Below the pieces are notes generated by a model that was not told the origin of the DNA, ran no database searches, and saw only the letters and a list, made by a program, of their open reading frames with translations. This document shows positions 3,348 through 34,729 of a DNA stretch of 64,000 bases, one piece after another; the stretch's first letter is position 1; each line of letters opens with the position of its first letter. The stretch is from Lentisphaerota bacterium. GTDB lineage: Bacteria > Verrucomicrobiota > Lentisphaeria > Victivallales > Victivallaceae. The translations under genes were made by a program, and so were the position numbers. The stretch spans positions 1 through 64,000 of the forward strand of contig SUVW01000016.1 in the NCBI GenBank assembly GCA_015061815.1, given 5' to 3'.

Positions 3348-3418
3348 AAAAGGCAAGGGTGTATTGCCGCCCCGGGGGGACGGCACAGTGAAAACATAAT
3401 CAATATGGGAGAACGCAA

Positions 3419-4192
3419 ATGAAACATCAACTCTCCGTCCGGAGAGTAAAGCTGTGCGGCTTTACTCTGATCGAATTACTCGTGGTCATTGCCATCATCG
3501 CGATTTTGGCGGCAATTCTTTTACCTGCCCTCAATTCTGCCCGTGAACGCGGCCGGGCGGCGGCATGTATCAACAACCTCAAACAGACCGCTACCGTCAG
3601 CCGGATGTATCTGGATGCTCATGAAGAGTTCTTCCCGGCAACTGTTATGGGATTGAAAAAGCCCAACACCTGGATAGATCAGTTTTATGAAGCCGGTTTT
3701 GTTGAAGAACCCAAGAACGGGACCGATGTCTTTTACCGTTGTCCTTCCGGACCGCAGGGAGTCGGATTTACCAGTACCAGATCATCAGCTTACGCTGCGC
3801 CCTATGTTGATCCGGTCGGGATCCATCTGAAAAACAGTGCATATCAGAAATCAGGTACCGGAGCCAATGCCAAAACCATCTCTTTCAGTGTGCTGGTCAA
3901 CTTCATAGACAATCATACCCGGTATGATGATGCTGTGAAAACCCCGTATCAGTGTCCGATCATTCCTGCCGGTAATAATGCAGCCCAATGGGTGGATACC
4001 AACCGGGGAGTGCCGACGGCTTATCACAACGGTCAGATCAATCTGGCAACATTTGCCGGTAATGTCGCGACGGTCGCCCCGGAAGAGCTGAAGGACAAAT
4101 ATTTCAAGCCCAACTCCGACAGTACCGCTGCTGATGCTACTGAAAATTTCCTCGGCTACAAAGACCGCAATTTTCAAATCCAGATGTTTTAA
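3419..4192 (+). CDS. Type II pseudopilin-like protein (prepilin N-terminal domain, H-X9-DG family variant)
   Basis: A 257-aa protein with a type IV prepilin leader: a basic start, then [19 protein letters not shown] and [21 protein letters not shown], the N-terminal helix typical of the very abundant pseudopilins of Lentisphaerae and Planctomycetes. Prepilin peptidase should cut before Phe of FTLIE. The C-terminal motif these proteins share, H-X9-DG, is present as H-X9-AG ([12 protein letters not shown]), so the conserved Asp is missing. It is the first gene of a polysaccharide or acyl-sugar operon, where such proteins are often found next to secreted hydrolases. The function is not established; a cell-surface or secretion role is inferred. 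Confidence 0.85.
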
Positions 4193-5335: not shown

Positions 5336-5341
5336 AATACT

Positions 5342-7303: not shown

Positions 7304-8238
7304 ATCTGAAAGTCCAGCCATCGCAGTTGATCTGTTCCGATGTTTGTGCATGGCCGAATCTGAAAAAATTTGATAATGGCGAATTGATGCTGCTCTTTCA
7401 CAATGAAGCAAGCCATGTAGTCAATGAGGGCGAATTGGATTTGCTTTTCAGTACGGATAACGGTCACAGCTGGGGACAGCGGCAGACGGTGTTTCACCAC
7501 CAGCCGGGAACCTGCCGCACCAATCATGCTGCCGGAATATCCGGTGACCGGGTGGTGATGCTCTGTTCCGGATGGAAACTTTTCCGGGAAAGATTGCTGA
7601 TACCGGCATCCATGATCTCCAGCGACCGGGGGAAAACCTGGGAAAGTTACGCCGAAACACCCGGTTTGTCGCCCTTGACATGGGTGGCATTCGGCAATAT
7701 CGTTCAAGCAGATAACGGGGATCTGTGCGTGGCGGCATATCTGAATCTCAACGGGCTGGTCGAAAGCTGCTTTATCCGCAGTTGTGATCAGGGCGTCAGT
7801 TGGAAAACCATTGCCCGGATCGCTGACCGCTGTAATGAAACTGATATCGCCCACCTCGGCGGCGGTCATTGGATCGCAGTGGTCCGGACAGAGGATCGGG
7901 GAATATTGCAATATGATTCGGTCGATGACGGCAGATCCTGGCACTTTATCCGGCAGTTGACCCGTCCCCGGCAAGTAACCGGCAATCTCTGCCGTTTTTC
8001 TGACAGCCGTCTGATTTTCAGTTTCGGAGACCGTACCGAAGGCAACTTCGGAGTCCGGGCCATGATCAGCGAAAATAACGGTAAAAGCTGGAGCGACGCA
8101 TTTGAATTGGTCAAAACTCAGTCCGGTGACTGCGGTTATCCATCCAGCGTGCAGTTGAATAACGGAGAGATCCTGACCGCATATTATACTAAAACGGATG
8201 AAAGTTATGAATTGCGGTCAGTAAGATGGCAGATCTGA
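7300..8238 (+). CDS. Sialidase/BNR-repeat family exo-glycosidase-like protein
   Basis: This 312-aa protein has five Asp-box (BNR) motifs along its length: STDNGHSWG, SSDRGKTWE, SCDQGVSWK, SVDDGRSWH and SENNGKSWS. These mark the six-bladed beta-propeller of sialidases (GH33 and relatives). The C-terminal YPSSVQLNNGEILTAYY is a common family ending. No signal peptide is seen, so it probably works in the cytoplasm on imported oligosaccharide, or is exported by another route. The start at 7300 overlaps the previous stop; the longer frame starting at 7258 is inside the upstream gene. The NanA-type lyase 2.4 kb downstream supports a sialic-acid-like substrate, but propellers of this type also act on other sugars. 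Confidence 0.75.
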   Translation: MNLKVQPSQLICSDVCAWPNLKKFDNGELMLLFHNEASHVVNEGELDLLFSTDNGHSWGQRQTVFHHQPGTCRTNHAAGISGDRVVMLCSGWKLFRERLLIPASMISSDRGKTWESYAETPGLSPLTWVAFGNIVQADNGDLCVAAYLNLNGLVESCFIRSCDQGVSWKTIARIADRCNETDIAHLGGGHWIAVVRTEDRGILQYDSVDDGRSWHFIRQLTRPRQVTGNLCRFSDSRLIFSFGDRTEGNFGVRAMISENNGKSWSDAFELVKTQSGDCGYPSSVQLNNGEILTAYYTKTDESYELRSVRWQI

Positions 8239-8256
8239 CAAACAATGGAGGAGATT

Positions 8257-9039
8257 ATGAAAAAAAGTTTTATTTCAATGGCGATGGTACTGGCAATTGC
8301 GGCTGGGGCCGGGGAGGGGAAGACGGTTTTTGCCGGCAGCAAAGCATCTCAATGGCGCAAATATGTTTCAGCTGCTCCGGAAAGCGGGGTGCTGCAGGCT
8401 GCACTTCCATTGCCGATACGTTACGGATATCCGGTTTTTGAAGTTGCTCCGGATAAAAAGTATGCAATATGCGGAGAATTCCGGCTCACTGAAGCCGGAA
8501 CGCAGGCACAGCTGGAAGCCGGTTTGCTCTGTATCGCGGCCAATGGGAAAGGTATTTTCCCGTATAATTGTCTGCCATTGAAAAATATTCCGCTTGGTAA
8601 ATTGGCCGCAGAAGCTCCGGCCGGCAGCCGGAGTGTGACGGTTTCCGGTATTCCGGAATTGAATGCAGTCAAGAAAAACTATCTTTGTCTGGCCTTTAAT
8701 GCCAAAGAGGATGAATCCGATTTGCCCAACTTTGAAATATCACCTTTCATCACCGTCAACGGGGTAAAAAAACAGAACGGAAATCTGCTGATTACTCTGG
8801 AAAAACCGTTGGATAAATCCTTTGCCGCTGATACCCCGGTGCGGATCCATACACACGGCGGAGTATTTGTTTATGCCGTGCGCAATCAGAAGCTGACTTC
8901 ACAATGGACTGTTGTCCGGAAGGTCATTTCCGGCAGACAGCTGCGTCCGGGGACGGTCAGGGCGCAGATGATTTTCGGGGTCAACGGTAAAGGGCCGGGT
9001 AAAGTGGAATTCCGCAATCTGCAGGTCATCGAGTTATGA
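8257..9039 (+). CDS. Secreted protein of unknown function
   Basis: A 260-aa protein with a signal peptide (MKKSFISMAMVLAIAAGAGEG). The start at 8257 is chosen because GGAGGAG (8247) precedes it; an ATG at 8245 has no such site. The mature part is rich in beta-strand-like segments (YAICGEFRLTEAGTQAQLEAGL, PGTVRAQMIFGVNGKGPGKVEFRNLQVIEL), the pattern of a carbohydrate-binding jelly-roll. No catalytic motif was recognised. The stop overlaps the start of the next gene by 4 bp. A role in sugar binding is an inference from fold pattern and operon context. Confidence 0.7.
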   Translation: MKKSFISMAMVLAIAAGAGEGKTVFAGSKASQWRKYVSAAPESGVLQAALPLPIRYGYPVFEVAPDKKYAICGEFRLTEAGTQAQLEAGLLCIAANGKGIFPYNCLPLKNIPLGKLAAEAPAGSRSVTVSGIPELNAVKKNYLCLAFNAKEDESDLPNFEISPFITVNGVKKQNGNLLITLEKPLDKSFAADTPVRIHTHGGVFVYAVRNQKLTSQWTVVRKVISGRQLRPGTVRAQMIFGVNGKGPGKVEFRNLQVIEL

Positions 9040-9761
9040 GCATTGCTCCGGAAGTATTGAAAAAGGTCGCATGGTTCAACGACCTTTTTCTGGAAACAGA
9101 TATCCGGGGTGTGGTGATCTGGTTTCACGGTCTCAATGGTCTGTGCCGTACCGCTGCCAATCAGATATCTTCCTGGGAAGTGGAAATTTCCGCGCGCGGC
9201 GGTTTGATCGTGTACCCTTACATCAATCCCTGGAGTTTTCTATGCCGCAATGATCTGCAATTTATGGACCGGCTGATCCCGGCAGTTTACAGCCATTACC
9301 GTCTGTCAGAAAAAGTGCCGCTGGTGATCTCCGGGCAGAGCATGGGGGGCAATGCGGCATTGCAGTATTGCTGTTACGGCAAATTTCCGGCGGCACGATG
9401 CATGGTGGTTTCTCCATTGTGTGATCCGGCGGACTTTTATGCGGCAAGTACTCCTTCGCGGCCGTCCGGTGCAGCGGCGATGCACAACATGTTTGACAGT
9501 GAACCCGGTGGTTTTGATTCTGCCATGACCGAACATGCGCCGCTGCTTCAGGCCGGACGGATGCCGGATATACCGTATATGTTCATTCACAGCACGCATG
9601 ATGAGGTGATTCCGGTGAAACATTCAGATGAGATGGTTGCTGCGTTGCGGGGAAATGGCCGGCAGGTGGTTTACCGCAAACAGAAATTTTTGGGCCATAC
9701 GGCTGTATCACTGGCCGATGAAATTGCTATGACGGATTTTATCTCCGGGGCGTGGCAGTAA
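9036..9761 (+). CDS. Alpha/beta-hydrolase (esterase-like)
   Basis: A 241-aa protein with the alpha/beta-hydrolase triad: nucleophile Ser in GQSMGGNAAL (about residue 105), Asp in HSTHDEVIPVKHSDEM and His in FLGHTAV. The oxyanion region is WFHGLNG. There is no signal peptide. It is coupled to the preceding gene (ATGAG overlap). In a sialidase/NanA operon an esterase could remove O-acyl groups from the sugar, but nothing in the sequence fixes the substrate. Confidence 0.8.
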   Translation: MSIAPEVLKKVAWFNDLFLETDIRGVVIWFHGLNGLCRTAANQISSWEVEISARGGLIVYPYINPWSFLCRNDLQFMDRLIPAVYSHYRLSEKVPLVISGQSMGGNAALQYCCYGKFPAARCMVVSPLCDPADFYAASTPSRPSGAAAMHNMFDSEPGGFDSAMTEHAPLLQAGRMPDIPYMFIHSTHDEVIPVKHSDEMVAALRGNGRQVVYRKQKFLGHTAVSLADEIAMTDFISGAWQ

Positions 9762-9790
9762 ATAAACAGGAACAGAGGAGAGAGATCATT

Positions 9791-10597
9791 ATGAGAACCC
9801 GGTTGATGGGAGAGATGACCGTTAAAGAGGTCAGGGAATATCTGAAAATCAATCAGACAATTGTTTTTCCTTACGGCGTGGTAGAACAGCACGGTTACCA
9901 TCTGCCGTTGAATACCGATAATATCAATGCGGAAAATTTTGCATTGGCTCTGGCGGAAAAACTCGACTGCATTGTTGCACCGTGTTTGAATTACTGTTTT
10001 TCCGGCGGGCAGCTGGCAGGTACGATCAATGTCAAACCGACCAATTTCTGCAATATGGTGTGCGATATCATGGAAGCTCTGGTCAATCAGGGATTCAGAA
10101 ATATATTCATCACTCCGGGCCATGCCGGCAGTGAAAGTCTGGTGCAGTTGAAAGAGGCACTGCGGATTTTGAAGTGGCTCAATCCGGGGATGAAAGATGC
10201 GATGATAATGATTATCTGCCGGGGAGAATTTTTCCGGATACCTGCCCCGGCGGACCGGAAAGGCGGCGATTTTCATGCCGGTGATCTGGAAACATCATTG
10301 ATGCTCAATTACCGTCCGGATCTGGTGCAGCTGCCGGCACTTGCTGTTGACCGCCCGGAAATAGCGGAAAAATTGCGGATCGATCCGGATGCTTACCAGC
10401 AGCGGACTACATTCAGCGGGCTGCCGCAGGAGATACCCAATACCCGGCAGGATCCGGCCATTGAAGTCGGTGTGATGGGATATCCCGGTGATGCTGATCC
10501 GGCCAAAGGGATATTGTATACGGAAAAAGCTCTGGAAAAGATGATGCCGCTGCTGAAAAAAGCGGTTGAAGATGCGGAAAAAGCAAGAAATCAATAA
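9791..10597 (+). CDS. Creatininase-family amidohydrolase
   Basis: A 268-aa protein with creatininase-family metal motifs: VVEQHGYHLPLNTD near the N-terminus (E..QHG..LPL.TD) and FHAGDLETS (HAG..ETS). The third usual motif, NGHGGN, is changed to PGHAGS. These enzymes cleave cyclic or linear C-N bonds with a binuclear metal site. ATG at 9791 follows an AGGAGAGAG site; the longer frame from 9752 starts in the previous gene. It sits between the hydrolase and the NanA-like gene, so a role in opening or deacylating the sugar-derived substrate is plausible but unproved. Confidence 0.75.
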   Translation: MRTRLMGEMTVKEVREYLKINQTIVFPYGVVEQHGYHLPLNTDNINAENFALALAEKLDCIVAPCLNYCFSGGQLAGTINVKPTNFCNMVCDIMEALVNQGFRNIFITPGHAGSESLVQLKEALRILKWLNPGMKDAMIMIICRGEFFRIPAPADRKGGDFHAGDLETSLMLNYRPDLVQLPALAVDRPEIAEKLRIDPDAYQQRTTFSGLPQEIPNTRQDPAIEVGVMGYPGDADPAKGILYTEKALEKMMPLLKKAVEDAEKARNQ

Positions 10598-10611
10598 GCA
10601 GGAAGGTTATT

Positions 10612-11517
10612 ATGAAAGATAACAAGGTTTTCAACGGAGTGATGACCGCGCTGGTGACTCCGCTGGATAAGAATGGTAAATTGAATGTCTCCTGCGCAGC
10701 AGATCTGGTGGAATATCAGCTGGATGCCGGGATCGATGGTTTCTATCTTTGCGGCGGAACCGGCGAAGGAGTGGTTCTGACTCCGGAGATCCGGATGCAG
10801 ATGGTGGAAACCGTTGTCCGGGTCAATCGCGGACGGGGCAAAATAATCGTACAGACTGGAGCGATCCGGGCCGCTGAAGCATTTTTATTGACTGAACACG
10901 CGCAGAAGTGCCGGGTCGACGGCATATCTTCCATTCCGCCGTCACTTTACTATCAGTATCCGGAGAGCGATACGATAGAGTATTACCGTGAACTTGCCGG
11001 CCGGACTGATCTGCCGGTATTGATCTACCGGACTCCGGCGTATTCGACCGGCGGCATGGTGACGCTGATGGAAAAATTGATCAAAACCGAAAATATCATC
11101 GGCCTGAAGTATACCGGGGCAAGTTACTATGAAATGTGGAAACTTTTGCAGCTCAACGACGGCAATATCAATGTGATCAATGGAGCCGATGAAACTCTGC
11201 TTTGCGGTCTGGTTACCGGGGCGCAAGGCGGGATAGGGGCATTATACAATATCATTCCGGAAGAGTTCGTGGCATTGTACAAAGCTTTTGCAGCCGGAGA
11301 TATTGTCAAGGCTAAAGCTCACCAGCACCGGATAGCTTCAACGGTGGCGACCTTGGGTAAATTCATTCGCGGGGCGGGGATCATTCTGCCTTTGAAAGCG
11401 ATATTACAGGATATGGGTTTTGCAGTGGGTTCACCGGTCAGTCCGGCGCAGGATTACCCGGCGGAAGTGCGTGAAGAATTGATTTCGGCATTCAGACAGC
11501 TGCGCAGTCAGTGGTAA
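10612..11517 (+). CDS. Dihydrodipicolinate synthase / N-acetylneuraminate lyase family aldolase
   Basis: This is a 301-aa class I aldolase of the DapA/NanA superfamily. It shows VTPLDKNGKLN, the pyruvate carboxylate-binding GGTGEG motif, IYRTPAYSTG (Tyr of the relay) and IGLKYTG with the Schiff-base Lys. Such enzymes split or form 2-keto-3-deoxy sugars with pyruvate. The sialidase upstream favours a NanA-like role over lysine synthesis. RBS AGGAAGG lies 7 bp before the start. It is the last gene of the operon that starts at 3419. Confidence 0.8.
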   Translation: MKDNKVFNGVMTALVTPLDKNGKLNVSCAADLVEYQLDAGIDGFYLCGGTGEGVVLTPEIRMQMVETVVRVNRGRGKIIVQTGAIRAAEAFLLTEHAQKCRVDGISSIPPSLYYQYPESDTIEYYRELAGRTDLPVLIYRTPAYSTGGMVTLMEKLIKTENIIGLKYTGASYYEMWKLLQLNDGNINVINGADETLLCGLVTGAQGGIGALYNIIPEEFVALYKAFAAGDIVKAKAHQHRIASTVATLGKFIRGAGIILPLKAILQDMGFAVGSPVSPAQDYPAEVREELISAFRQLRSQW

Positions 11518-11524
11518 AAACAGA

Positions 11525-11574
11525 AAAAGTTCTGTGCACTGAAGATTGACAAAAGTTCTTTGCGATGATATATT
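11525..11574 (+). promoter_or_regulatory. Promoter of the araC-type gene with direct-repeat operator
   Basis: TTGACA (11546) and TATATT (11569) are 17 bp apart, close to consensus. Two direct repeats AAAAGTTCTNTGC lie at 11525-11537 and 11551-11563, 26 bp apart; the second starts within the -35 box. Tandem direct half-sites overlapping -35 are typical of AraC-family binding, so autoregulation by the downstream gene is likely. The predicted transcription start (~11581) falls at the ATG at 11582. Confidence 0.7.
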
Positions 11575-11581
11575 TATCGGC

Positions 11582-12442
11582 ATGACAGACTACGAATGTA
11601 TATCAGAGGCACTTGGCAGAGCTTTGAAAATGCGCTACACCCGGATGGTGACGGCGGAAATTTTCATGCCTCCGGAAAATTGTTCACAGCGTTTGACATT
11701 TTACGCGGCCCCGGCAGTTTCCATTCCGCTGACGGGTGAACAGCCCCAATATTTTTACCGCAATGGTCTCTGGCAGCGTTTTGTCTGTGAACCGGGGACG
11801 GTGATGCATTATCCCCGGATGTGTTATGTGGGAAGTACAGCAGAGATGTATCGGACGGAGAATTTCGGGATGATCCTGCATCCGGAATTTCTCCGTTTGA
11901 TTTACGGCCGGAAAGCTGAACCGGAACATGCCGGAGGCCTGATGGCACATGTGCATGTCAGTTCTCTGCGGCAGTCGACCCGGACATTGATGGAAGCGTT
12001 ATCGCAGTTGGGGATTTCTGGAGATTCGGATGCGATGGCGGTACATATTCTGCCGCTGCTGCTGCGGGCAGTGGCAACTGATTTGGAAACATACCGGCGC
12101 AGCCGTTTGGAAGTTTCCGAAGAGTTATATTGGAAAATATGTTCCTATGTGCGGGACAATTTTGCTTTTATCGGCACCCGGACGGAGGTGGCGGATCACT
12201 TTCATATTTCAGAAGTTTATCTATCCAAACTTTTCCGTCGTTACGGTGGTGGAGAGAGTTTCAATGAGTATTTGAATCATATCCGGCTGGAGACGGCAGT
12301 GCAGCTGCTGCAGCACAGTGACATATCCTGCCGGGAACTGGCATTGCGTTGCGGTTATACATCCGGGTCATATTTTATCCGCTGTTTCCGCAACCGTTTT
12401 AATTGCACTCCTTTGTACTACCGCAAGTTTCACGAAAAGTAA
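11582..12442 (+). CDS. AraC-family transcriptional regulator
   Basis: A 286-aa regulator. The N-terminal ~170 residues are a sensor domain of unknown ligand; the C-terminal ~100 residues hold two helix-turn-helix units (TEVADHFHISEVYLSKLFRRYGG and CRELALRCGYTSGSYFIRCFRNRFNCTPLYYR), the normal AraC arrangement. The ATG at 11582 sits where the promoter at 11546 should start transcription, so the mRNA may be leaderless; an in-frame ATG at 11630 is an alternative. The TTG at 11546 is the -35 box, not a start. It probably controls the sialidase/NanA operon upstream and itself. Confidence 0.85.
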   Translation: MTDYECISEALGRALKMRYTRMVTAEIFMPPENCSQRLTFYAAPAVSIPLTGEQPQYFYRNGLWQRFVCEPGTVMHYPRMCYVGSTAEMYRTENFGMILHPEFLRLIYGRKAEPEHAGGLMAHVHVSSLRQSTRTLMEALSQLGISGDSDAMAVHILPLLLRAVATDLETYRRSRLEVSEELYWKICSYVRDNFAFIGTRTEVADHFHISEVYLSKLFRRYGGGESFNEYLNHIRLETAVQLLQHSDISCRELALRCGYTSGSYFIRCFRNRFNCTPLYYRKFHEK

Positions 12443-12493
12443 TATTTCCCGGCATTTGCGATACCGGATATATGTGGAGTGATTTTGTTTTAC

Positions 12494-12579
12494 AAAAAAA
12501 AGCGGCTGCTGGAGCCGCCGGAAAGGACTTCCCGCAGGAAGCAGCCTTCAGCCCTGCTTTATCAGGACTTGTAGAGTTA
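12494..12579 (-). ncRNA. tracrRNA gene, copy A (distal)
   Basis: On the minus strand the RNA begins near 12579 with TAACTCTACAAGTCC, which pairs with the crRNA repeat segment GGGGCTTGTAGAGTT (11 consecutive pairs, then a wobble and two more pairs). Next comes an ACTTCCTGCGGGAAGT hairpin, then a terminator hairpin GCGGCT-ccagc-AGCCGC followed by eight T residues at 12494-12501. A promoter TTGAAA-N16-TACATT (12613 down to 12586) lies just upstream. The layout matches tracrRNAs that guide crRNA processing and Cas9 loading. It is separated from copy B by a 51-bp repeat. Confidence 0.8.
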
Positions 12580-12634
12580 TCGGTTAATGTACCGCATATT
12601 TCTTTATTTTCAAGTTGACAACAGTAAATAATAC

Positions 12635-12685
12635 TCGAGCCAGTAGTTGTTGGGCACAGCGGTCATAACCAATAGTTACCCATTC
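12635..12685 (-). repeat. VOC-gene 3'-tail repeat, copy 1
   Basis: Fifty-one bases that match 17997-18046 at all but about two or three positions, starting with 35 identical bases from TCGAGCCAGTAG onward. Diverged copies are at 18686-18733 and 19795-19844. In minus-strand reading it contains a remnant of the VOC C-terminus (V-P-N-N-Y-W-L-E). It lies between the two tracrRNA genes and has no gene of its own. Confidence 0.8.
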
Positions 12686-12729
12686 AGGTAAAATGTTCCA
12701 GTATCTTCTGTTATACGATCAATTTTCAC

Positions 12730-12816
12730 AAAAAAAAGGGTGGCTGCTGGAGCCACCACGGAAGGACTTCCCGCAGGAAGTTGCCCTCAGTCCCTTTATC
12801 AGGACTTGTAGAGTTA
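12730..12816 (-). ncRNA. tracrRNA gene, copy B (adjacent to cas9)
   Basis: Same design as copy A: an anti-repeat starting TAACTCTACAAGTCC near 12816, an ACTTCCTGCGGGAAGT hairpin, a terminator hairpin GGTGGCT-ccagc-AGCCACC and eight T residues at 12730-12737. The promoter TTGAAA-N16-TACATT (12849 down to 12822) is conserved in spacing with copy A. The terminator stem differs from copy A by paired changes (GCGGCT/AGCCGC versus GGTGGCT/AGCCACC), so both are held as structured RNAs. It is transcribed divergently from cas9. Confidence 0.85.
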
Positions 12817-12919
12817 CCATTAATGTAACTCATATTTTCATATTTTCAAGTTGAAAAATGGAAAAAATATGGATATATTTTATTTGTATACTTCATTTAA
12901 ATGCAGAAAGGATACTGTT

Positions 12920-15900
12920 ATGTCGCAACTTACACTCGGATTAGATTTAGGTATTGCTTCTATTGGCTGGGCTCTGGTGTCAGAAAATGGTAATAAACGG
13001 AATTTGCTCAATTGGGGGAGTCGTATTTTTCAACCGGGGATGGATGATGACATCGCGTCCGGGAAAGGAGTATCGCGTTGTGCGGAAAGACGCTTAAAAA
13101 GAGCTTTGAGGGAACAATACCATCGTCGGAAAGAACGCAAAACGCAATTAATAGAATCTCTTATTGCCGGTGGGCTACTCAAGAATACTCCTAATGCTGA
13201 ATTTTTTGCTGAAATTGACAAAAGACTGCTGGAATCATTGCCTCAAAATATGCGATGGCAAACTGCTCATTTGATTCCATATTTCTTTCGTAAGCAGGCT
13301 CTGGATCGTCAATTGAAGCCGGAAGAAATCGCCAGAGCAATATTTCACTTGGCTCAACGGCGTGGCTATTTAAGCAATCGCAAACAGGAAGTCAAAGATG
13401 AAGATTCCGGTGTCGTAAAAAACGGCATCAACGAATTGGCACAGGCATTGAAAGATTCCGGAGCAAGAACATTGGGAGAATATTTTTGTTCTGTTGATCC
13501 GGAAGTTGAACGTATCCGTTGCCGTTATACATCGCGCGAGATGTATGTAGATGAATTCCGTAAAATCTGTCAGGCTCAGCGGGCAACAATATCCGAAGAA
13601 CTGGAGAAGCAGTTATATCGTGCAATTTTTTATCAACGCCCGCTTAAATCGTGTAAAAACCTGATTGGCAGGTGTCGCATTTATCCGGAACTGCCACGTT
13701 GTTCCTTTGTCAAAGAAGAAGCACAGCTTTTTCGTATCTACACCACAGTTCGCAATTTGCGTGTTGAATCAGCTGGTACGATTCGTTCCTTGACTGATGC
13801 TGAATTCCAAAAATGTGTTGATTTTTTGGACAGTTATTCTCCATTATTCAAGAAAAATGGCAAAATACAATTGTCGAAACTTCAAAAAGCCATAGGATTG
13901 AGCAAAGAAGAAAAATTCACGCTGGCAGATGAAGAAAAAGAAATTTACGGAAATGAATTGAAAAACATTCTTTTTCGGGCATTTGGAGAAAACGCCGGAA
14001 AATTGAGTATTTCAGAGAAAGAAAAATTTTTCAATGATCTGTCTTCTATAATCAAGGAAGATGTTTTGCGTAAAAGACTGCATAATTATTGGCATCTTTC
14101 AGAAGAAAAAATTGACGATGTTTGCGGAATCGCGCTGCCCGATCAGTACTGTGCATTTTCTCAAAAGGCATTACAGGAAATATTACCTGAACTTGCCGCC
14201 GGAATTGATTTGGGGACAATTTTGAAACTTGAAAGTCCGGATTTCCGCAAAGAGGAATTGGACATTTTGCCTTTGGTCGATAAAAGCGGTATTGAATTAC
14301 GCAATCCGGTAGTACACCGGGTGCTGACAGAATTACGTCGTCTGATCAATGCTGTTATAAAACGTTATGGGAAACCGGATATTATCAGAATTGAACTTGC
14401 CAGAGATCTCAAAGCTACCAATAAAGAGCGGGAAAAAATCACGCGCCAAAACCGGGAAAGAGAAAAAATCCGTGCTGAAATCGTTGAAGAAATCATCAAA
14501 GAATGCGGTATCAAAAATCCCAAACGTAATGATATTCTCAAAGTGATGCTGGCAAGGGAATGCAACTTTGTATGTCCATATTCCGGAAAACATTTTTCCA
14601 TGAGCGATCTTTTTAATGGACAATTGGAAGTGGAGCATATCATTCCTTATTCCCGCTCGTTTGATGATTCTTTTGCCAATAAAACATTGTGTTTACGGGA
14701 ATACAATGCCAGAAAAAGCAACCGAACTCCCTACGAAGCATTTTCCGGCAGTAATGAGTATAGCGCAATGCTTGCCCGGGTCGCTGATTTCAAGGGGATA
14801 TATGCGGAGCGAAAATTGGAGCTTTTTGAACAGCCGGAAGTCGTCGCAGAAGATTTTCTCTCCCGCAATCTCAATGATACCCGTTACGCAAGCAAATTGG
14901 CGATGCAGTATTTGAGTTTGCTTTACGGCGGAATTGTTGATAAAACAGGCAAACAACGGATTTTCGCTACTTCCGGCAGCTGTACGGCATTGATCAGGCG
15001 GGCCTGGGGAGGTAATTTTTTGCTTGGCGAGGGCGAAAAGGTTCGGGATGACCACCGACATCATGCCATTGATGCTCTGACTATTGCGCTTACAACACCG
15101 GAGTTGGTACGCTGGGCGGCTGGGATGAATGTTGAACAGCGTAAGCAGATGTATGAGTCAAAAGATTTTGTTGACAATGGACTTTTTCATCAGGCACAGG
15201 AACAATTGGATGCAGTAGTCGTTTCGCACCATGTAGTGAATAAAATGCGGGGTGAATTGCACAATGCAACACTTTACAGCAAGGATTTCGGAGCCGGAGA
15301 ACGCCACTCGAGAGTGGCGTTGGATAAATTATCTGTAAAAGATTTATCAAATATTGTTGATGAAGCAGTCCAGAAAATCATTCTTGACAAACTTGGAGTA
15401 TCAAATATCGCTGAAGTTTCCGACAGTATGCTTAAAATATTCAAGGAACCGGCGAATTTCCCTGTAATGAAAGATAAGAAGGGAAATGTTGTCAATATAA
15501 TCAAAAAAGTTCGGGTTAAAGAAAACAAGCGAACCATAAGCATCGGTAAAGGTGATGGGAAACGGGAAGTCGCCAACGGTGAAAATTATATTCTGGCAAT
15601 TTTTGCACGCTTGGATGAAAATGGAAATGAAATCGCCTGGGAGGGGGAGATCGTTTCTCTGCTGGATGCGGTTTTGCGTCATCAAAAAGGCTTGCCGCCG
15701 TTTGAAAAGAACCGTCCGGGGATGAAATTTAAATTCTCATTGCAAAAAGGAGACATCGTTACCTGGGAGAAAGATGGAAAACTCATCCCCTGTATAATAA
15801 GAGGAATTTCTCTGCCGCAATTCTATTGTGTTCCTATCAATGATGCAAGAATGCAAAAAGAACTTAAAGCAGCGAAAGCCTGGTATACCCCGACGTTATC

Positions 15901-15973
15901 AGCAGCACGCTGTGGAAAAATGCAAAAATACACTATGGATATATTTGGTAACTTACGGCGTGCTAATGACTGA
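12920..15973 (+). CDS. cas9: Type II-C CRISPR-associated endonuclease Cas9
   Basis: A 1017-aa Cas9, the compact size usual for subtype II-C. RuvC-I is LTLGLDLGIASIGWAL (Asp9). An Arg-rich bridge helix follows (SRCAERRLKRALREQYHRRKER). RuvC-II is IIRIELARDLK (Glu492). HNH reads CPYSGKHF..LFNGQLEVEHIIPYSRSFDDSFANKTL with catalytic His573. RuvC-III is DDHRHHAIDAL (His715, Asp718). All catalytic residues are present, so it should cut both DNA strands guided by crRNA:tracrRNA. The start at 12920 has AAAGGA 8 bp upstream and begins MSQLTLGLD; the longer frame from TTG 12851 lacks support and overlaps the tracrRNA-B promoter. cas1 overlaps its end by 8 bp. Codon use and A+T content are visibly more AT-rich than in the flanking operons, which suggests transfer. 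Confidence 0.97.
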   Translation: MSQLTLGLDLGIASIGWALVSENGNKRNLLNWGSRIFQPGMDDDIASGKGVSRCAERRLKRALREQYHRRKERKTQLIESLIAGGLLKNTPNAEFFAEIDKRLLESLPQNMRWQTAHLIPYFFRKQALDRQLKPEEIARAIFHLAQRRGYLSNRKQEVKDEDSGVVKNGINELAQALKDSGARTLGEYFCSVDPEVERIRCRYTSREMYVDEFRKICQAQRATISEELEKQLYRAIFYQRPLKSCKNLIGRCRIYPELPRCSFVKEEAQLFRIYTTVRNLRVESAGTIRSLTDAEFQKCVDFLDSYSPLFKKNGKIQLSKLQKAIGLSKEEKFTLADEEKEIYGNELKNILFRAFGENAGKLSISEKEKFFNDLSSIIKEDVLRKRLHNYWHLSEEKIDDVCGIALPDQYCAFSQKALQEILPELAAGIDLGTILKLESPDFRKEELDILPLVDKSGIELRNPVVHRVLTELRRLINAVIKRYGKPDIIRIELARDLKATNKEREKITRQNREREKIRAEIVEEIIKECGIKNPKRNDILKVMLARECNFVCPYSGKHFSMSDLFNGQLEVEHIIPYSRSFDDSFANKTLCLREYNARKSNRTPYEAFSGSNEYSAMLARVADFKGIYAERKLELFEQPEVVAEDFLSRNLNDTRYASKLAMQYLSLLYGGIVDKTGKQRIFATSGSCTALIRRAWGGNFLLGEGEKVRDDHRHHAIDALTIALTTPELVRWAAGMNVEQRKQMYESKDFVDNGLFHQAQEQLDAVVVSHHVVNKMRGELHNATLYSKDFGAGERHSRVALDKLSVKDLSNIVDEAVQKIILDKLGVSNIAEVSDSMLKIFKEPANFPVMKDKKGNVVNIIKKVRVKENKRTISIGKGDGKREVANGENYILAIFARLDENGNEIAWEGEIVSLLDAVLRHQKGLPPFEKNRPGMKFKFSLQKGDIVTWEKDGKLIPCIIRGISLPQFYCVPINDARMQKELKAAKAWYTPTLSAARCGKMQKYTMDIFGNLRRAND

Positions 15974-16844
15974 CCGGATAATTGAAATTGCAGATACAAC
16001 CGCTTTTCTGTCATTGGAAAATGGCTTGTTGAAAATCCGTTTGCCGGATTCCAGAAACGTCACTGTTCCTCTTGCGGAAATACAGTGTTTGATCCTTGCC
16101 AATCCGGCGGTGACCATAACCGGGGCGCTGTTGTCTGCTCTTGCCGAAAATGGAGTAATTGCAGTTATATCCGGTAATAATCGTTTGCCGGCGGCAATGC
16201 AATTGCCGCTGGATGGCAATTATATTCAAAATGAAAGGTTCAGAGCGCAGCTTTCTGCCCCCATCCCACTTAATAAAAGGTTGTGGCAATTGGTTGTCAA
16301 AGAAAAAATAAGGAATCAGGGGTTGTTGTTGAAAAGCCTTTATGGAGATGATTTCAACCTGTTAAAATTGAGCAATTTGGTAAATTCCGGAGATACGGAG
16401 AATATTGAAGGGAGAGCTGCTGTAATTTATTGGAAGAATTTATTCGGATTTCCATTTTTAAGAGATCGTGAAAATAATGACAATAATCTGCTTTTAAATT
16501 ACGGATATGCTGTTTTAAGAGCGATGGCAGCAAGAGCGTGCTGCGGAGCTGGATTACATCCGACATTGGGTATAAATCATCACAACCGTTACAATCCATA
16601 TTGTTTGGCAGATGACATTATGGAACCCTATCGCTGGATAGTAGATAGAGAAGTTATAACAATAAATCCACAGAATTCAGCAATAAATGAACTATCCAAA
16701 GAGATAAGACAGAAACTGCTTTCCGCCTTATTGAAAAAAATTCAAACAGCCAATGGGCTATGCTCTCTGTCAGATATATTGAAACACAATGCGGTTCAAA
16801 TTGCAGAATCTTTTCAACATAATGAAGTGAAATTGAAATATTGA
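15966..16844 (+). CDS. cas1: CRISPR-associated integrase Cas1
   Basis: A 292-aa Cas1 of the type II group. Metal-binding residues are visible in the usual places: Glu in NIEGRAAVIYWKNLF, His in GLHPTLGINHHN and the acidic LADDIMEPYR. With Cas2 it inserts new spacers into the array. ATG at 15966 overlaps the cas9 3' end by 8 bp; the longer frame from 15828 is inside cas9. No csn2 or cas4 follows, which fits II-C. Confidence 0.95.
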   Translation: MTDRIIEIADTTAFLSLENGLLKIRLPDSRNVTVPLAEIQCLILANPAVTITGALLSALAENGVIAVISGNNRLPAAMQLPLDGNYIQNERFRAQLSAPIPLNKRLWQLVVKEKIRNQGLLLKSLYGDDFNLLKLSNLVNSGDTENIEGRAAVIYWKNLFGFPFLRDRENNDNNLLLNYGYAVLRAMAARACCGAGLHPTLGINHHNRYNPYCLADDIMEPYRWIVDREVITINPQNSAINELSKEIRQKLLSALLKKIQTANGLCSLSDILKHNAVQIAESFQHNEVKLKY

Positions 16845-16847
16845 GTT

Positions 16848-17174
16848 ATGCTGTCGGAGATTAAATCTATGTGGCTGATGACGATGTTTGATTTGCCAAC
16901 AATCAGCAAAGAGGAGAAAAAGGAATATACCCGTTTTCGTAAATATCTTTTGAGAGAAGGATTTATTCAACTGCAATACTCGGTATATGCAAAATTTCTG
17001 GCTTCCAGAGAAAATTCCCGCAAGTACTATCGCTATATTCAGGAAATCGTTCCTCCGGGCGGTTATGTCCGGTTACTGATGGTGACAGACAAACAATTTG
17101 GAGACATGGTGTCCTTGTATGGAACAAAAATTGAAGAAGTTGAACACAAACCGGAACAGTTGCTACTATTCTGA
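16848..17174 (+). CDS. cas2: CRISPR-associated protein Cas2
   Basis: A 108-aa Cas2 with the ferredoxin-like start MWLMTMFDLPT (metal-binding Asp after strand 1) and RFRKYLLREGFIQLQYSVYAKF. It is the structural partner of Cas1 in spacer acquisition. It lies 3 bp after cas1. Translation may start at 16848 or at the ATG at 16869 (MWLMTMF). The array begins 101 bp downstream. Confidence 0.95.
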   Translation: MLSEIKSMWLMTMFDLPTISKEEKKEYTRFRKYLLREGFIQLQYSVYAKFLASRENSRKYYRYIQEIVPPGGYVRLLMVTDKQFGDMVSLYGTKIEEVEHKPEQLLLF

Positions 17175-17275
17175 TAAAATATAAAATCGCGGAATAAATT
17201 CTGTTGCCATTGATGCTTTTTTTGAAATGACATCAATATTGACATTACTTACTGTCAAACTGTTACAGCGAATGC

Positions 17276-17841
17276 AATATAGCACACTTCTTAAACTCTA
17301 CAAGCCCCAACGTGATGTCATGGCTTTACCTTTTCTTGCATAATATAGCACACTTCTTAAACTCTACAAGCCCCAACTTTCCGGCACATCGTATGACTGG
17401 CAGAAAAAATATAGCACACTTCTTAAACTCTACAAGCCCCAACGCTGGTTTGATGATTATCCGGATATCGGAACAATATAGCACACTTCTTAAACTCTAC
17501 AAGCCCCAACTTTACTGCCCGCAGATCACGATCCTTGCCCAATATAGCACACTTCTTAAACTCTACAAGCCCCAACTTGTCAAGTTTTCAAATGGAAATG
17601 TTTTGCAATATAGCACACTTCTTAAACTCTACAAGCCCCAACTCATTCGGATATCTATCCAAAAGATTATATAATATAGCACACTTCTTAAACTCTACAA
17701 GCCCCAACTTAAATTATTGTCATGTCCTGATTCTGAATAATATAGCACACTTCTTAAACTCTACAAGCCCCAACTCCAGACTGTCAATGCGGATAGTCAA
17801 TTCAGAATATAGCACACTTCTGAAACTCTACAAGTCCCAAC
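17276..17841 (-). CRISPR. Type II-C CRISPR array, 9 repeats of 36 bp and 8 spacers of 30-31 bp
   Basis: Repeats start at 17276, 17342, 17408, 17475, 17541, 17607, 17673, 17739 and 17806. The first eight are identical; the ninth has two substitutions. Spacers are 30 bp except the third and eighth (31 bp). Read on the minus strand the repeat starts GTTGGGGCTTGTAGAG and ends GTGTGCTATATT. This is the orientation that pairs with the tracrRNAs, so crRNAs come from the minus strand. Each repeat carries TTGTAG-N16-TATATT with an extended -10 (TGCTATATT), so each crRNA can start from its own promoter, as known in Neisseria and Campylobacter II-C systems. The 101 bp between cas2 and the first repeat holds no gene. 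Short open frames across the array are artefacts of the repeats. Confidence 0.98.
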
Positions 17842-17867
17842 CAACGCATGTTATGTTACAGTTGGAA

Positions 17868-17948
17868 CTATAATTTAGCCAATAAAGAAATATTCGCCTT
17901 GCCGTCAGCGGTTGAATAAATGATGATTTCTTCTGAACTATTGTCCAT
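17868..17948 (-). pseudogene. Truncated rhuM 5' fragment
   Basis: Twenty-six codons (MDNSSEEIIIYSTADGKANISLLAK, then L and stop) match the first 25 residues of the intact rhuM at 18732-19748, as does the DNA upstream. Homology ends abruptly at about 17875, 34 bp from the last CRISPR repeat. The rest of the gene is absent from the window on either side of the cas locus. It marks a deletion or insertion breakpoint at the distal end of the array. Confidence 0.85.
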
Positions 17949-17996
17949 ACTATTTGTCTTTCTGAAAATCATCAATACCGGTTTTCCGGGATGACT

Positions 17997-18046
17997 TCGA
18001 GCCAGTAGTTGTTGGGCACAGCGGTCATAACGGATAGTTACCCATT
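17997..18046 (-). repeat. VOC-gene 3'-tail repeat, copy 2
   Basis: Fifty bases nearly identical to 12635-12685 and in the same orientation. On the minus strand they directly follow the stop of the four-helix-bundle gene and end in a VOC-like tail (V-P-N-N-Y-W-L-E-V-I-P-E-N-R-Y-stop) that precedes the truncated rhuM. With copy 1 it brackets a 5.3-kb segment carrying tracrRNA-B, cas9, cas1, cas2 and the array. Confidence 0.8.
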
Positions 18047-18641
18047 ATCCATCTTTGCGTTTTTGAATACGCATATTGTGCATACGTTCAGAAAAGCCGC
18101 CGTTATCCAAAAATATGGCGGCTTTCTTTTCAATCTGCCGTTTCAAGAAATAACTTGCCGTATCAATAAGTAACAGCACTGCGTTGGCAACCAGTACGGA
18201 TTTGTACGGAATGGTACGGATAGATACGGAGAAATGATTTTCAGCCCATACAATAAATTCTCTGAACTCTTTTTTACTGTTTATGCGGCGTTTGATAAAC
18301 TCGAGATAGAGTAAATCATCTTTGAGCCACTGTTGTTCGCAGTGCTGTCGCAGATAATCCTGATAATCCAGTTTGAGTTCTCCCAGAGAAGCCCGGGCAA
18401 CATTGTAAAGATTAAGTTCCAGTTTGGCGGAAGTCGCTGCATCAACAGAACCTTCGGCAATATTCTGCACTCCGGAACGTGCCGCCTGCACCATTTGATC
18501 GCAGGTGCGGCTTTCCGCTGGAATATACAATTCAACAAAACGCACGGTAATATCATAAATCAACTGTGCCAGTTGAAAAGATTTCAATCTGCGGTACCCG
18601 CCTGATGGAAGTAATAAATCTCCGTTCTTATCCGTACCCAT
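18045..18641 (-). CDS. Four-helix-bundle protein with suffix domain (copy 1)
   Basis: A 198-aa protein of the S23-like four-helix-bundle family (YRRLKSFQLAQLIYDITVRFVELYIP, RTCDQMVQAARSGVQNIAEGS, ARASLGELKLDYQDYLRQH) with the C-terminal extension seen in the 'four helix bundle suffix' group (AAIFLDNGGFSERMHNMRI). The start is put at 18641 because GGAG lies 8 bp upstream; a GTG at 18665 would overlap a VOC-like tail. The protein is identical to that at 19844-20440 and the DNA differs at only a handful of positions, so the duplication or conversion is recent. The molecular function of the family is not known; related small bundles bind RNA or act as accessory subunits. Confidence 0.8.
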   Translation of the reverse strand: MGTDKNGDLLLPSGGYRRLKSFQLAQLIYDITVRFVELYIPAESRTCDQMVQAARSGVQNIAEGSVDAATSAKLELNLYNVARASLGELKLDYQDYLRQHCEQQWLKDDLLYLEFIKRRINSKKEFREFIVWAENHFSVSIRTIPYKSVLVANAVLLLIDTASYFLKRQIEKKAAIFLDNGGFSERMHNMRIQKRKDG

Positions 18642-18685
18642 CCGTACTTCTCCGTATAAAATCACCGCTTTTCAGGCACGACTTC

Positions 18686-18733
18686 TAACCAATAGTTATT
18701 GGGCACACTTCTCATAACAGATAGTTCCCCATT
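18686..18733 (-). repeat. VOC-gene 3'-tail repeat, copy 3
   Basis: On the minus strand it reads through a VOC-like C-terminus (VPNNYWLEVVPEKR then stop) and joins directly to the leader of four-helix-bundle copy 1 (TTTATACGGAGAAG). It begins at the stop of rhuM. It resembles copy 4 more than copies 1 and 2. Confidence 0.75.
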
Positions 18734-19748
18734 ATTCATCTTTTGGACGGTTGCGGAGCGATTCTTCAAGCAGTTTCAACTCCTGCAAATCTTCCCAGTC
18801 AGCCTGTTTGGCGGCTTCGGTTTTACGCCGCTGATTGAATACTTCATACCGTTCGCTTACGATTGTTTTCATATCGTTATTACTGATTGAACCCGCGTTG
18901 TTCAATATTTCAAAACCGTTGAACTCCAATAACTGATTGACATTATTACGCCAGAAGTCCATCGTGAGTGTACGTCGGTTTTTGATCCGTAATTCAGCCG
19001 ATTCCAGAAAGATCATAACCAAACGGTTGAGCGAATCGATTTCATCGTTGTTCAAAAAGTTTTTGGCAATGAATATATCCCCCTTGCGGACGACTGACCC
19101 CGCCCAACTGGTAGCTCCGAAATTTGGCAGTTCGGCTTGGGCACGTTGAATAATGATCTCTGCGGCTGTAAGATGAGTTACCGCATAAAGCAGTTTATTC
19201 TGCGTTTCAGCAAAGAACATTTGGGTTGCCTTATCAGTGGCATCATAATCACTGCTCAAACTGAATAATTCCCGAACCTTCTGATAAAAGCGTTTTTCCG
19301 AAGCCCGGATCTCCCGGATGCGTTCCAGCAATTCATCAAAATAATCAGGGCGACCGTCAGGATTTTTTAGCCGTTCATCGTCAATAACAAAACCTTTCCG
19401 CATAAACTCAACGAGATTGCGGTTCGCCCATTGCCGGAATTGCACGCCCCGCTTGCTCCGCACCCGAAAACCGATGGCAAGGATCATATCAAGCGAGTAA
19501 TAGGCAACATTGTAATCTTTGCCGTCGGCGGCAGTTGTTAAATAAAACTTAACAACTGAATTTTCTTGCAACTCATTGTCTTCAAATATATTGGATATGT
19601 GAGTTGATATATTTGCTTTAGAGGTGGCAAAAAGTTCGGCAAGCTGATTTTGGTTCAGCCAAACACTGCCGTCCTTTGCCAGCAAAGAGATATTCGCCTT
19701 GCCGTCGGCGGTTGAATAAATGATGATTTCTTCTGAATTATTACCCAT
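18732..19748 (-). CDS. RhuM-family protein
   Basis: A 338-aa protein of the RhuM family (named from a Salmonella pathogenicity-island gene). Visible family traits are IIIYSTADGKANISLLAKDGSVWLNQNQLAELF.TSK.NISTHISNIF (a winged-helix-like segment), YNVAYYSLDMILAIGFRVRSKRGVQFRQWAN, and a C-terminal helical part. The role of RhuM is not known; such genes are common in genomic islands. ATG at 19748 follows GAGAG at suitable distance; the longer frame begins in the VOC tail. Only one intact copy is present, plus a 5' remnant at 17868-17948 that differs from it by roughly 10 percent in DNA. Confidence 0.85.
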   Translation of the reverse strand: MGNNSEEIIIYSTADGKANISLLAKDGSVWLNQNQLAELFATSKANISTHISNIFEDNELQENSVVKFYLTTAADGKDYNVAYYSLDMILAIGFRVRSKRGVQFRQWANRNLVEFMRKGFVIDDERLKNPDGRPDYFDELLERIREIRASEKRFYQKVRELFSLSSDYDATDKATQMFFAETQNKLLYAVTHLTAAEIIIQRAQAELPNFGATSWAGSVVRKGDIFIAKNFLNNDEIDSLNRLVMIFLESAELRIKNRRTLTMDFWRNNVNQLLEFNGFEILNNAGSISNNDMKTIVSERYEVFNQRRKTEAAKQADWEDLQELKLLEESLRNRPKDE

Positions 19749-19794
19749 ATTACTCTCTTTCAAAAAATCCTCAATACCGGTTTTCGGGGATGAC

Positions 19795-19844
19795 TTCGAG
19801 CCAGTAGTTATTGGGCACACTTCTCATAACAGATAGTTCCCCAT
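19795..19844 (-). repeat. VOC-gene 3'-tail repeat, copy 4
   Basis: On the minus strand it follows the stop of four-helix-bundle copy 2 and carries VPNNYWLEVIPENRY-stop in front of rhuM. The sequence TGGCTCGAAGTCATCCCCG matches the intact VOC gene end at 20461-20500 with few changes. Confidence 0.78.
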
Positions 19845-20440
19845 TATCCATCTTTGCGCTTTTGAATACGCATATTGTGCATACGTTCAGAAAAGCCGCC
19901 GTTATCCAAAAATATGGCGGCTTTCTTTTCAATCTGCCGTTTCAAGAAATAACTTGCCGTATCAATAAGTAACAGCACTGCGTTGGCAACCAGTACGGAT
20001 TTGTACGGAATGGTACGGATAGATACGGAGAAATGATTTTCAGCCCATACAATAAATTCTCTGAACTCTTTTTTACTGTTTATGCGGCGTTTGATAAACT
20101 CGAGATAGAGTAAATCATCTTTGAGCCACTGTTGTTCGCAGTGCTGTCGCAGATAATCCTGATAATCCAGTTTGAGTTCTCCCAGAGAAGCCCGGGCAAC
20201 ATTGTAAAGATTAAGTTCCAGTTTGGCGGAAGTCGCTGCATCAACAGAACCTTCGGCAATATTCTGCACTCCGGAACGTGCCGCCTGCACCATTTGATCG
20301 CAGGTACGGCTTTCCGCTGGAATATACAATTCAACAAAACGCACTGTAATATCATAAATCAACTGTGCCAGTTGAAAAGATTTCAATCTGCGGTACCCGC
20401 CTGATGGGAGTAATAAATCTCCGTTCTTATCCGTACCCAT
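19844..20440 (-). CDS. Four-helix-bundle protein with suffix domain (copy 2)
   Basis: Identical in protein sequence to copy 1 (18045-18641); the few base differences are silent. It lies immediately downstream of the intact VOC gene: a possible GTG start at 20464 overlaps the VOC stop, but the ATG at 20440 with GGAG 8 bp upstream is preferred. Together the VOC tail and this gene form the unit that was duplicated to 18045-18690. Confidence 0.8.
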   Translation of the reverse strand: MGTDKNGDLLLPSGGYRRLKSFQLAQLIYDITVRFVELYIPAESRTCDQMVQAARSGVQNIAEGSVDAATSAKLELNLYNVARASLGELKLDYQDYLRQHCEQQWLKDDLLYLEFIKRRINSKKEFREFIVWAENHFSVSIRTIPYKSVLVANAVLLLIDTASYFLKRQIEKKAAIFLDNGGFSERMHNMRIQKRKDG

Positions 20441-20460
20441 CCGTACTTCTCCGTATAAAG

Positions 20461-20832
20461 TCACCGGTTTTCGGGGATGACTTCTAACCAGTAGTTATTT
20501 GGGTCGGTGACAAAATAGATTCCCATTTCGGGGTTTTCGTAGCAGATAACGCCCATTTCGGAGTGGCGTTTATGGGCTCCTTCGTAATCATCTACTTTGA
20601 AAGCAAGGTGAAATTCATTGTCGCCGAGGTCGTAGGGGCGATCCATTTCCCGCAGCCACGTCAATTCCAGCTGGTGGCTGCTGTTGCCGTCTTCCAGATA
20701 AACGATGATGAAGCTGCCGTCTTTAGCGTTGATTCGGCGGACTTCGTGCATATCAAAAGCATCCTGATAAAATTTAATGCTCTTGTCAAGGTCAAAAACG
20801 TTCAGATTATTATGAACCATCCGGAATTTCAT
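20461..20832 (-). CDS. Glyoxalase I-like VOC metalloenzyme
   Basis: A 123-aa vicinal-oxygen-chelate protein with two beta-alpha-beta-beta-beta modules. The expected metal ligands are visible: His in VHNNLNVFDLDKS, Glu in HQLELTW, His in EFHLAFKVDD and Glu in NNYWLEVIP. This is the pattern of lactoylglutathione lyase (GloA), which detoxifies methylglyoxal, although other VOC reactions are possible. ATG at 20832 has GGAGAACGATACT upstream; the 44-residue extension of the longer frame is not family-like. Its 3' end is the source of the tail repeats at 12635, 17997, 18686 and 19795, and a pseudogene copy is at 34453-34729. Confidence 0.85.
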   Translation of the reverse strand: MKFRMVHNNLNVFDLDKSIKFYQDAFDMHEVRRINAKDGSFIIVYLEDGNSSHQLELTWLREMDRPYDLGDNEFHLAFKVDDYEGAHKRHSEMGVICYENPEMGIYFVTDPNNYWLEVIPENR

Positions 20833-21130
20833 AGTATCGTTCTCCTGGTTAAATATGTTCTCAATAAAACATAATACCGCAACGGCGCAAATGCAAATCC
20901 TGAAAGTTTTTTCTTGCTGATATTTGACTTCTTTTTTCTCCGGTGCTTTTTTTGAAAAAATCAAATGCCGGGAGAGGTTAAGCCATTACTGATTGATAAA
21001 TCGGAACTGCCTATTGTACTGCTCCACTATAATCGTTGAAAATCTCTTCTGCCGCAGTTGAAAAAACTTCTGTAAATGCTTTTTTTACAACTCAAAGTAT
21101 CACATTAGATTTGAAGGAATAAGCAAATAT

Positions 21131-34452: not shown

Positions 34453-34729
34453 GGTGTTTTCGCAGCAGATAACACCCATTTCGGCGTGGCGTTTGCGGGC
34501 GGCTTCGTAATCATCAACTTTGCATGCAAGGTGAAATTCGTTGCCGCCCGAGTCGCAGGGGCGATCCATTTCCCGCAGCCATGTCAATTCCAGATAAACG
34601 ATAGTGAAGCTGCCGTCTTTGGCGTTGATACGGAGCACTTCGTGCATATCAAAGGCATCGGAATAAAATCAGATGCTCTTGTCAAGGTCAAAAACGTTCA
34701 GATTATTGTGACCCATCCCGGAATTTCAT
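34453..34729 (-). pseudogene. VOC/glyoxalase-like pseudogene lacking its 3' end
   Basis: On the minus strand this matches the VOC gene at 20461-20832 from its first codon (MKFR) onward. It has a frameshift after codon 4, a stop within LDKSI, loss of about eight codons (YLEDGNSSHQLELTW shortened to YLELTW), and ends after MGVICCEN. The missing part is exactly the 3'-terminal region that is repeated around the cassettes at 12.6-20.5 kb. Confidence 0.85.

Follow-up and report, generated by a model that had tools for sequence, protein, structure and literature searches.

The 3' end of a glyoxalase-fold gene as a probable attachment site for serine-recombinase elements and stacked cargo, including Cas9 loci, in Victivallales

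Varied defence genes are gathered at single chromosomal sites in bacterial defence islands and hotspots, and in integron arrays, cassettes of a single gene that each close with a recombination site are stacked at one end. The Ccr enzymes of the staphylococcal cassette chromosome (SCC) are serine recombinases. According to PMC7029136, SCC, SCCmec and the arginine catabolic mobile element (ACME) have ccr recombinases, a protein-gene target (orfX/rlmH) and stacking units bounded by direct repeats, and a CRISPR element bounded by repeats occurs among them. By analogy, these islands are the closest precedent for the locus described here, a type II-C CRISPR-Cas9 locus that lies behind the 3' end of a VOC (glyoxalase-fold) gene in a Lentisphaerota bacterium of the order Victivallales. 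The stretch analysed, hereafter the window, comprises positions 1 to 64,000 of contig SUVW01000016.1 (assembly GCA_015061815.1); its own genome is labelled G000, and related genomes (G001, G004 and so on) come from a comparison set of 137 genomes of the order. We propose, with a probability of roughly three in four, that a family of elements encoding a large serine recombinase (LSR) integrates at the VOC 3' end, used as attB, bringing a replacement VOC and leaving stacked cargo that includes Cas9 loci.

Read outward from the VOC gene (20461..20838, minus strand; PF00903), the window contained fhb, which encodes a four-helix-bundle protein, a short tail sequence, rhuM, a tail, a second fhb, a tail, the start of a second rhuM, the array with cas2, cas1, cas9 and a tracrRNA, and a final tail; that is, tandem units bounded by direct repeats at the end of a gene. 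The tails at 12635-12684 and 17997-18046 were identical at 48 of 50 positions (96%) in direct orientation and bracketed tracrRNA-B, cas9, cas1, cas2 and the array, while additional copies lay at 18684 (78%) and 19796 (84%) and the VOC's own end at 20463. A 121-bp query around 12635 matched the G000 assembly at three places, all in the window (E 4.7e-17 for 17997). The near-identical bracketing repeats and the diverged copies at the junctions of the rhuM/four-helix run, ending at an intact VOC, had both been described in the original prediction and were both borne out. By alignment the tails, all on the minus strand, occupied 19790..19844 (after fhb1), 18664..18732 (after rhuM), 17977..18046 (after fhb2, forming the VOC-side bracket of the cas unit) and 12635..12690 (the far side).

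Alignment of all copies divided the tail into two halves. The first ~33 nt (P'), roughly AATGGGTAACTATTCGTTATGACCGCTGTG, were conserved and were not VOC sequence, and the second half (B') corresponded to the final ~36 nt of VOC, agreeing in several genomes with the local copy of that gene; in G011 AGKY ended both VOC and tail, and in G021 the same 36 nt were present twice. The C-terminus of the window VOC matched the tails' translation, and its last ~36 nt would be the B' half of the attachment site. On this alignment the tail is an attR-like composite, in which an element end (P') is joined to the VOC end (B'). The VOC 3' end had been proposed as the source of the whole tail, which holds for B' and fails for P', and tails as pure VOC duplicates were rejected since P' is not VOC sequence. 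A degenerate tail pattern found 20 sites in 15 of the 137 genomes, four of them in the window, and a reversed control pattern found none. Scatter of the tail without cargo, named beforehand as one outcome that would speak against integration, was rejected, as VOC or a cassette gene was present at the loci of 18 of the 20 sites. The remaining two were near a contig start (G023:C12) and after an open reading frame (ORF) resembling a nucleotidyltransferase (G049:C220). This ORF (G049 L288 720-1406), with a weak match to PADLOC PDC-S09, stands directly before the tail and is possible cargo. Two tails ~70 nt apart in G012 (L058 15695-15788) constitute a cassette without cargo.

Opposite element ends were found at truncated VOC genes (VOC'). 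In G001, G012 and G013 the VOC left its normal frame at codon 114-115 and ran into an inverted P' copy, with G064 as a fourth case, and a truncated VOC with the inverted end (P) was present in six genomes (G001, G012, G013, G033, G064 and G126). VOC matches ending at amino acids 113-115 numbered seven of 76, one of which (L213) did so only through a contig end. When P and P' were tested as inverted repeats, 0, 2 and 29 of 2000 shuffles were as good in G001, G033 and G126 respectively, the last being a weak result; for the left ends of G012, G013 and G064 against the window's P', 0, 1 and 8 shuffles were as good. The truncated VOC with P and the P'B' tail are interpreted as attL and attR, the two boundaries of an integrated element; they share a core with the target gene and their P arms are inverted. 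A retroelement with a long target duplication was set aside, as the P/P' inversion favours a recombinase; no search was aimed at it.

An LSR gene was located beside the element end in G033, G126 and G064. In G033 it stood directly after the truncated VOC (codon ~113), matching PF00239 at E 1.2e-11 and PF07508 at 21.1 bits, exactly the cut-off, in the order VOC', LSR, further sequence, intact VOC, KAP and tail. The G126 order was VOC', LSR, VapE, intact VOC, CBASS, tail, two ORFs, a second tail-like site and cas9-cas1-cas2, and that of G064 was VOC', P, LSR, VapE and an intact VOC at the contig end. The elements of G126 and G064 encode VapE/PriCT_2 proteins, and VapE is common in phage satellites. 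Kin of the LSR were sought in viral contigs, phages and plasmids and none was found; a PDB profile search gave one weak match, an integrase (E 0.0033). A recombinase linked to such cargo elsewhere had been proposed as a check, and G033 and G126 provide one, with none of this kind found in G000.

The G126 LSR was 98% identical to that of G033 at the same junction, the two genomes being in different families by taxonomy labels, and the G064 LSR was a 56% relative. Tiles of DNA compared between G033 and G126 were 64-76% identical inside VOC', 82% at the junction tile and 100% and 94% in the next two, dipping farther on to 74-80% and then reaching 92-100%. The element VOCs of these genomes shared 96.8% of amino acids, against 75.7% for the host VOC' and 69.8% for rplB. 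As the element VOC was far more alike than VOC' and rplB, the second VOC appears to travel with the element. The window VOC was 96% identical to that of G127 (rplB 79%) and 92% identical to that of G068 (rplB 69%).

These data suggest that the VOC 3' end would act as attB for integrative elements encoding an LSR, with crossover near codon 113-115. Integration would join the truncated VOC to one element end (attL) and the opposite end to the VOC tail (attR). Each element would carry a second complete VOC, then a cargo slot, often with defence genes, and then P', replacing VOC function and creating a new attB. Renewal of attB by the complete VOC would explain stacking: the next element would enter the new VOC and push older cargo outward, giving VOC-B'-cargo-P'B'-cargo-P'B', and Cas9 loci would be one cargo class. 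The tails, the LSR elements and their termini, the second VOC gene and the cargo were observed directly; we infer catalysis by the LSR at the VOC site and the order of events. Successive integration renewing the VOC end had been predicted, and the arrangement of truncated VOC, LSR, new VOC, cargo and tail in other genomes supports the succession, with the amendment that a whole VOC, not just its end, was apparently brought.

Cas9 loci recurred at the site. cas9 was present in 38 of the 137 genomes, and flanks were read for 34 of these, several of them short where contigs end; those left out were G135 (cas9 and VOC 1 Mb apart), G038 (on separate contigs), G079 and G085. In eleven of the 38, cas9 stood next to VOC or the VOC tail (G000, G001, G011, G067, G068, G074, G092, G116, G120, G125 and G126), G092 being counted for a lone B' half where its contig starts. 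G004 may be a twelfth, since one array repeat forms the end of both its cas contig and its VOC contig, and G097 had a decayed cas9 piece behind VOC with an intact cas9 elsewhere. In nine of the 11, cas9 ran the same way as VOC and followed its end or tail within ~0.3-0.6 kb. A simple binomial, which ignores kinship, gave P 6e-19 (10-kb target) or 2e-12 (40-kb target) in 3 Mb. Three Cas9 lineages were represented, of ~1020 aa (the window type), ~1210-1250 aa and 1356 aa with Csn2; the last, in G011, is type II-A, with csn2 in the operon (TIGR01866, 156 bits). The presence of several lineages at one site supports successive integration there; the original prediction had suggested that the cas locus may have arrived as one such cassette.

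Vertical synteny with local rearrangement would account for the site by an ancestral Cas9 locus beside VOC, with tandem duplication and gene conversion near the end of VOC as the origin of the tails. In G125, G067, G068 and G074 cas9 lies at most 0.5 kb after VOC with no intervening cassette, a G004-like cas locus occupies the same place and fhb1 and fhb2 are 99.2% identical, all as this account would have it. It does not sit well with three Cas9 lineages, one with Csn2, with the absence, as far as the flanks were read, of VOC and tail next to cas9 in 27 of 38 cas9 genomes (G004 included; four unread), with a P' that is not VOC sequence or with LSR elements at the same junction, and we regard it as unlikely.

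Within the window, cas9 (12920..15973, plus strand; 1017 aa; TIGR01865, 648.6 bits), type II cas1 (15957..16844, plus; TIGR03639) and cas2 (16848..17174, plus; TIGR01573) encode proteins above the NCBIfam cut-offs. The array (17273-17841, or 17276..17841 as annotated) has nine repeats of 36 nt and eight spacers and is probably transcribed on the minus strand; the spacers had no match except themselves in the sequences compared. tracrRNA-B (12732..12870, minus) is predicted from an anti-repeat and a terminator-like end and had no Rfam match. With a putative tracrRNA and no csn2, the locus is of type II-C. Between cas2 and the rhuM relic, ORFs of at least 70 aa occurred only inside the array. 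A further short-repeat cluster was present at 42363-42561.

The two sides of the cas unit had different relatives. Window 5100-12635 was 99.2% identical to G004:C19 over 7536 nt, through araC and tracrRNA-A (12494-12634, minus; 136 matches between lengths of 141 and 142), and past 12635 G004 continued into its own cas9, that region being 72% identical to the window's. From 12634, tail included, the window and G001:C64 shared 94% identity across 893 nt, up to the end of the G001 contig, and tracrRNA-B was G001-like (124 matches; lengths 139 and 132). The 12635 tail sits between these two tracrRNA-like copies and consists of P' and only ~20 nt of B', cut at the junction with tracrRNA-A. Farther along, 34453-37675, with a decayed VOC and mutS, was collinear with the VOC-mutS region of G004 at 83.5%. 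The decayed copy beside mutS (34453..34716, minus; collinear with G004:C5, 83.5% over 3251 aligned nt) likely marks the ancestral place of VOC, 13.6 kb from the working gene. Because these two flanks, both directly observed, are common to G004, the old content between them appears to have been exchanged for the stack with its G001-like cas unit. On these comparisons the present cas locus, which is G001-like, took the place of an earlier G004-like locus, of which tracrRNA-A is the probable scar: the unit of array, cas2, cas1, cas9, tracrRNA-B and P'B' would have arrived by the proposed route, and a later deletion, running from inside B' as far as the old tracrRNA, would have removed the earlier locus. 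The difference in identity between the two flanks (99.2% versus 83.5%) may come from recombination or from a mixed bin, G004 being 54% complete. The window thus carries in one locus two tracrRNA-like copies of different origin, one G004-like and one G001-like. A segment of G001 (L055 12986-13540), ~190 nt past the left element end, was 98% identical to window 3030-3584 (a gene end and a prepilin-like gene).

Exchange of this kind could also be the work of homologous recombination alone, with the ~36-nt B' and the VOC copies as portable homology, natural transformation swapping cargo at a hotspot and no recombinase acting now. No LSR was found in G000, the 94% block shared with G001 begins at 12634 with the tail included, and the fhb copies are homogenised, as would be expected on that account. 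Since it leaves P' and the inverted P at the truncated VOCs of six genomes unexplained, we consider it quite improbable, and integration by LSR elements is preferred.

The cargo between VOC and tail was diverse. The slot held a KAP NTPase in G033, a SMODS synthase with an S_4TM effector, a CBASS pair, in G126 (L189:19057-L190:654; the Cas9 system lies beyond two tails), a methyltransferase with an ATPase in G130 and an RmrA-like protein in G131. A comparison of related genomes for other cargo with the tail had been proposed as a check, and KAP, CBASS, methyltransferase and cas units with the tail answer to it. Look-alike proteins of 362-365 aa, with no Pfam or PADLOC match, occupied the slot in two genera (L194 7316-8404; L211 9020-10117), accompanied in G127 by a ClpP/SDH-type protease and a short rhuM and alone in G091; their gene is a candidate defence gene. 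In the window the first cassette is fhb1 (19844..20464, minus), whose product has a suffix domain, its families being read on the near-identical fhb2 (18045..18665, minus; 616 of 621 nt identical), and whose start overlaps the VOC stop (GTGA). The second cassette is rhuM (18732..19760, minus), assigned by family matches to Virulence_RhuM and to PDC-S05, a PADLOC candidate defence family; the program-called ORF begins farther upstream, within the tail. The second rhuM, a truncated start only (17875..17960, minus, by sequence comparison), abuts the array. The junctions of rhuM with P' in G021, G120 and G127 read alike for more than 30 nt.

That fhb and rhuM are independent mobile genes inserting behind VOC, with the cas locus bracketed by chance, is suggested by the fhb start lying exactly at the VOC stop and by the likeness of fhb to 23S rRNA intervening-sequence proteins, which is below the Pfam cut-off. 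KAP, CBASS, methyltransferase and cas cargo all terminate in the same tail, and 11 of 38 cas9 genomes have cas9 at the site with the binomial probabilities given above, kinship ignored, so that this explanation is very improbable compared with integration by LSR elements.

Several observations weigh against the proposed integration. Nearly all assemblies are drafts, the inverted-repeat test is weak in G126, and the G064 contig is possibly misbinned (6% contamination). At the loci of LSR kin in the order, a VOC was present within the ~1.5 kb examined in just three of 29, and at PF07508 loci of the genus in none of 12. G000 gave no PF07508 match and no match to the G033 LSR, which as a query against 34 genomes of the genus returned a single match at 25% identity. 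Apart from VOC, none of the tested LSR-element proteins was found in the window; no attL is left at the decayed VOC (34453), and the 13.6 kb from there to the working VOC contains sugar genes and none of the tested element proteins. G000 would be a remnant stack from which the LSR body was lost. Where the VOC 3' end was intact and followed by 500 nt or more of sequence, 36 of 58 loci had no fhb, rhuM, cas9 or tail, a count that includes G126, whose tail falls in the next stretch. The fhb copies at 99.2% identity, beside rhuM starts at 84% and tails at 87%, mean that part of the window stack may have come from duplication or conversion and not from separate arrivals. Neither fhb nor the G127/G091 protein had a PADLOC match, and cargo is not always defensive: in G118 (L229 190-12060) ~11.8 kb of AraC, glycoside and radical-enzyme genes lay between the VOC end and two tails. 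The G118 sugar genes resemble those beside the window's VOC.

The far side is the weak point of the case for Cas9 as cargo. A tail beyond the cas unit was seen in G000, G001 and G125. In G125, ordered VOC-cas9-cas1-array-decayed tail, 43 of 56 aligned bases matched, continuing past the stop codon, with a score of 27 against a shuffle maximum of 15 (0 of 2000), and a second tail there scored 21 against 18. For G126, G067 and G116, no tail was found within 1.5 kb past the array, and the contig ends at the far side of the array in G011, G120, G068, G074 and G092. In G000 and G001 cas9 is opposite to VOC, unlike in the other nine. A cas locus in place without tails had been named as evidence against delivery by this route, and this was found in part, as the G004-like locus has no tail on its cas9 side.

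A similar arrangement was found at another gene. In G121 (L191:12772-17018) a 44% relative of the LSR was flanked on one side by a comM-like gene that broke off at codon ~230 and on the other by a complete comM-like gene; the two copies (Mg-chelatase family) were 84% identical, and the LSR neighbours were sigma-like and kinase-like, as in G126. No separate comM tail was found within the 20 kb examined, and the right end of the element was unseen. Truncation and replacement of the target look like a habit of this recombinase group. For a broader proposal the balance is even: that serine-recombinase elements destroy the glyoxalase gene, supply a complete gene of their own and in this way recreate it as a landing site, a self-renewing dock on which immune cargo (CBASS, KAP NTPases, restriction-modification, RhuM and several Cas9 types) could accumulate indefinitely and persist after loss of the recombinase body; that it would be a main vehicle of Cas9 in the order; and that related recombinases would act likewise at other genes, as at comM in G121.

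Movement of Cas9 between bacteria is seldom visible in sequence. Here the sequence itself shows the ends, core, recombinase, replacement gene and cargo, so that a route by which CRISPR and other defence systems may be delivered becomes testable; the VOC tail also offers a sequence tag for finding cargo, including the uncharacterised fhb and the G127/G091 protein. The route had been put forward as undescribed for type II-C loci. In the literature searches made, no VOC-targeting system of this kind was found, and to that extent the suggestion stands, while SCC islands with a CRISPR unit (PMC7029136) are a described parallel. The likeness to SCC comprises the target in a protein gene, the direct repeats bounding units, the stacking and the repeat-bounded CRISPR unit. 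The phylum, target gene and site sequence are different, the target being a glyoxalase-fold gene and not rlmH/orfX; the present elements also contain a whole replacement target gene, with the cargo slot between that gene and attR. From integrons the locus differs in having multi-gene cargo as well and in that the recombinase found is a serine recombinase. Defence islands share the varied cargo, whereas here a recombinase, half-sites and a gene-replacement trick are visible. With LSR integrative elements and satellites the elements have in common an LSR next to attL that has both resolvase and recombinase domains, P and P' arms in inverted orientation and a VapE/PriCT_2 protein, and they differ from them in the complete second target gene and the apparent serial reuse of its attB.

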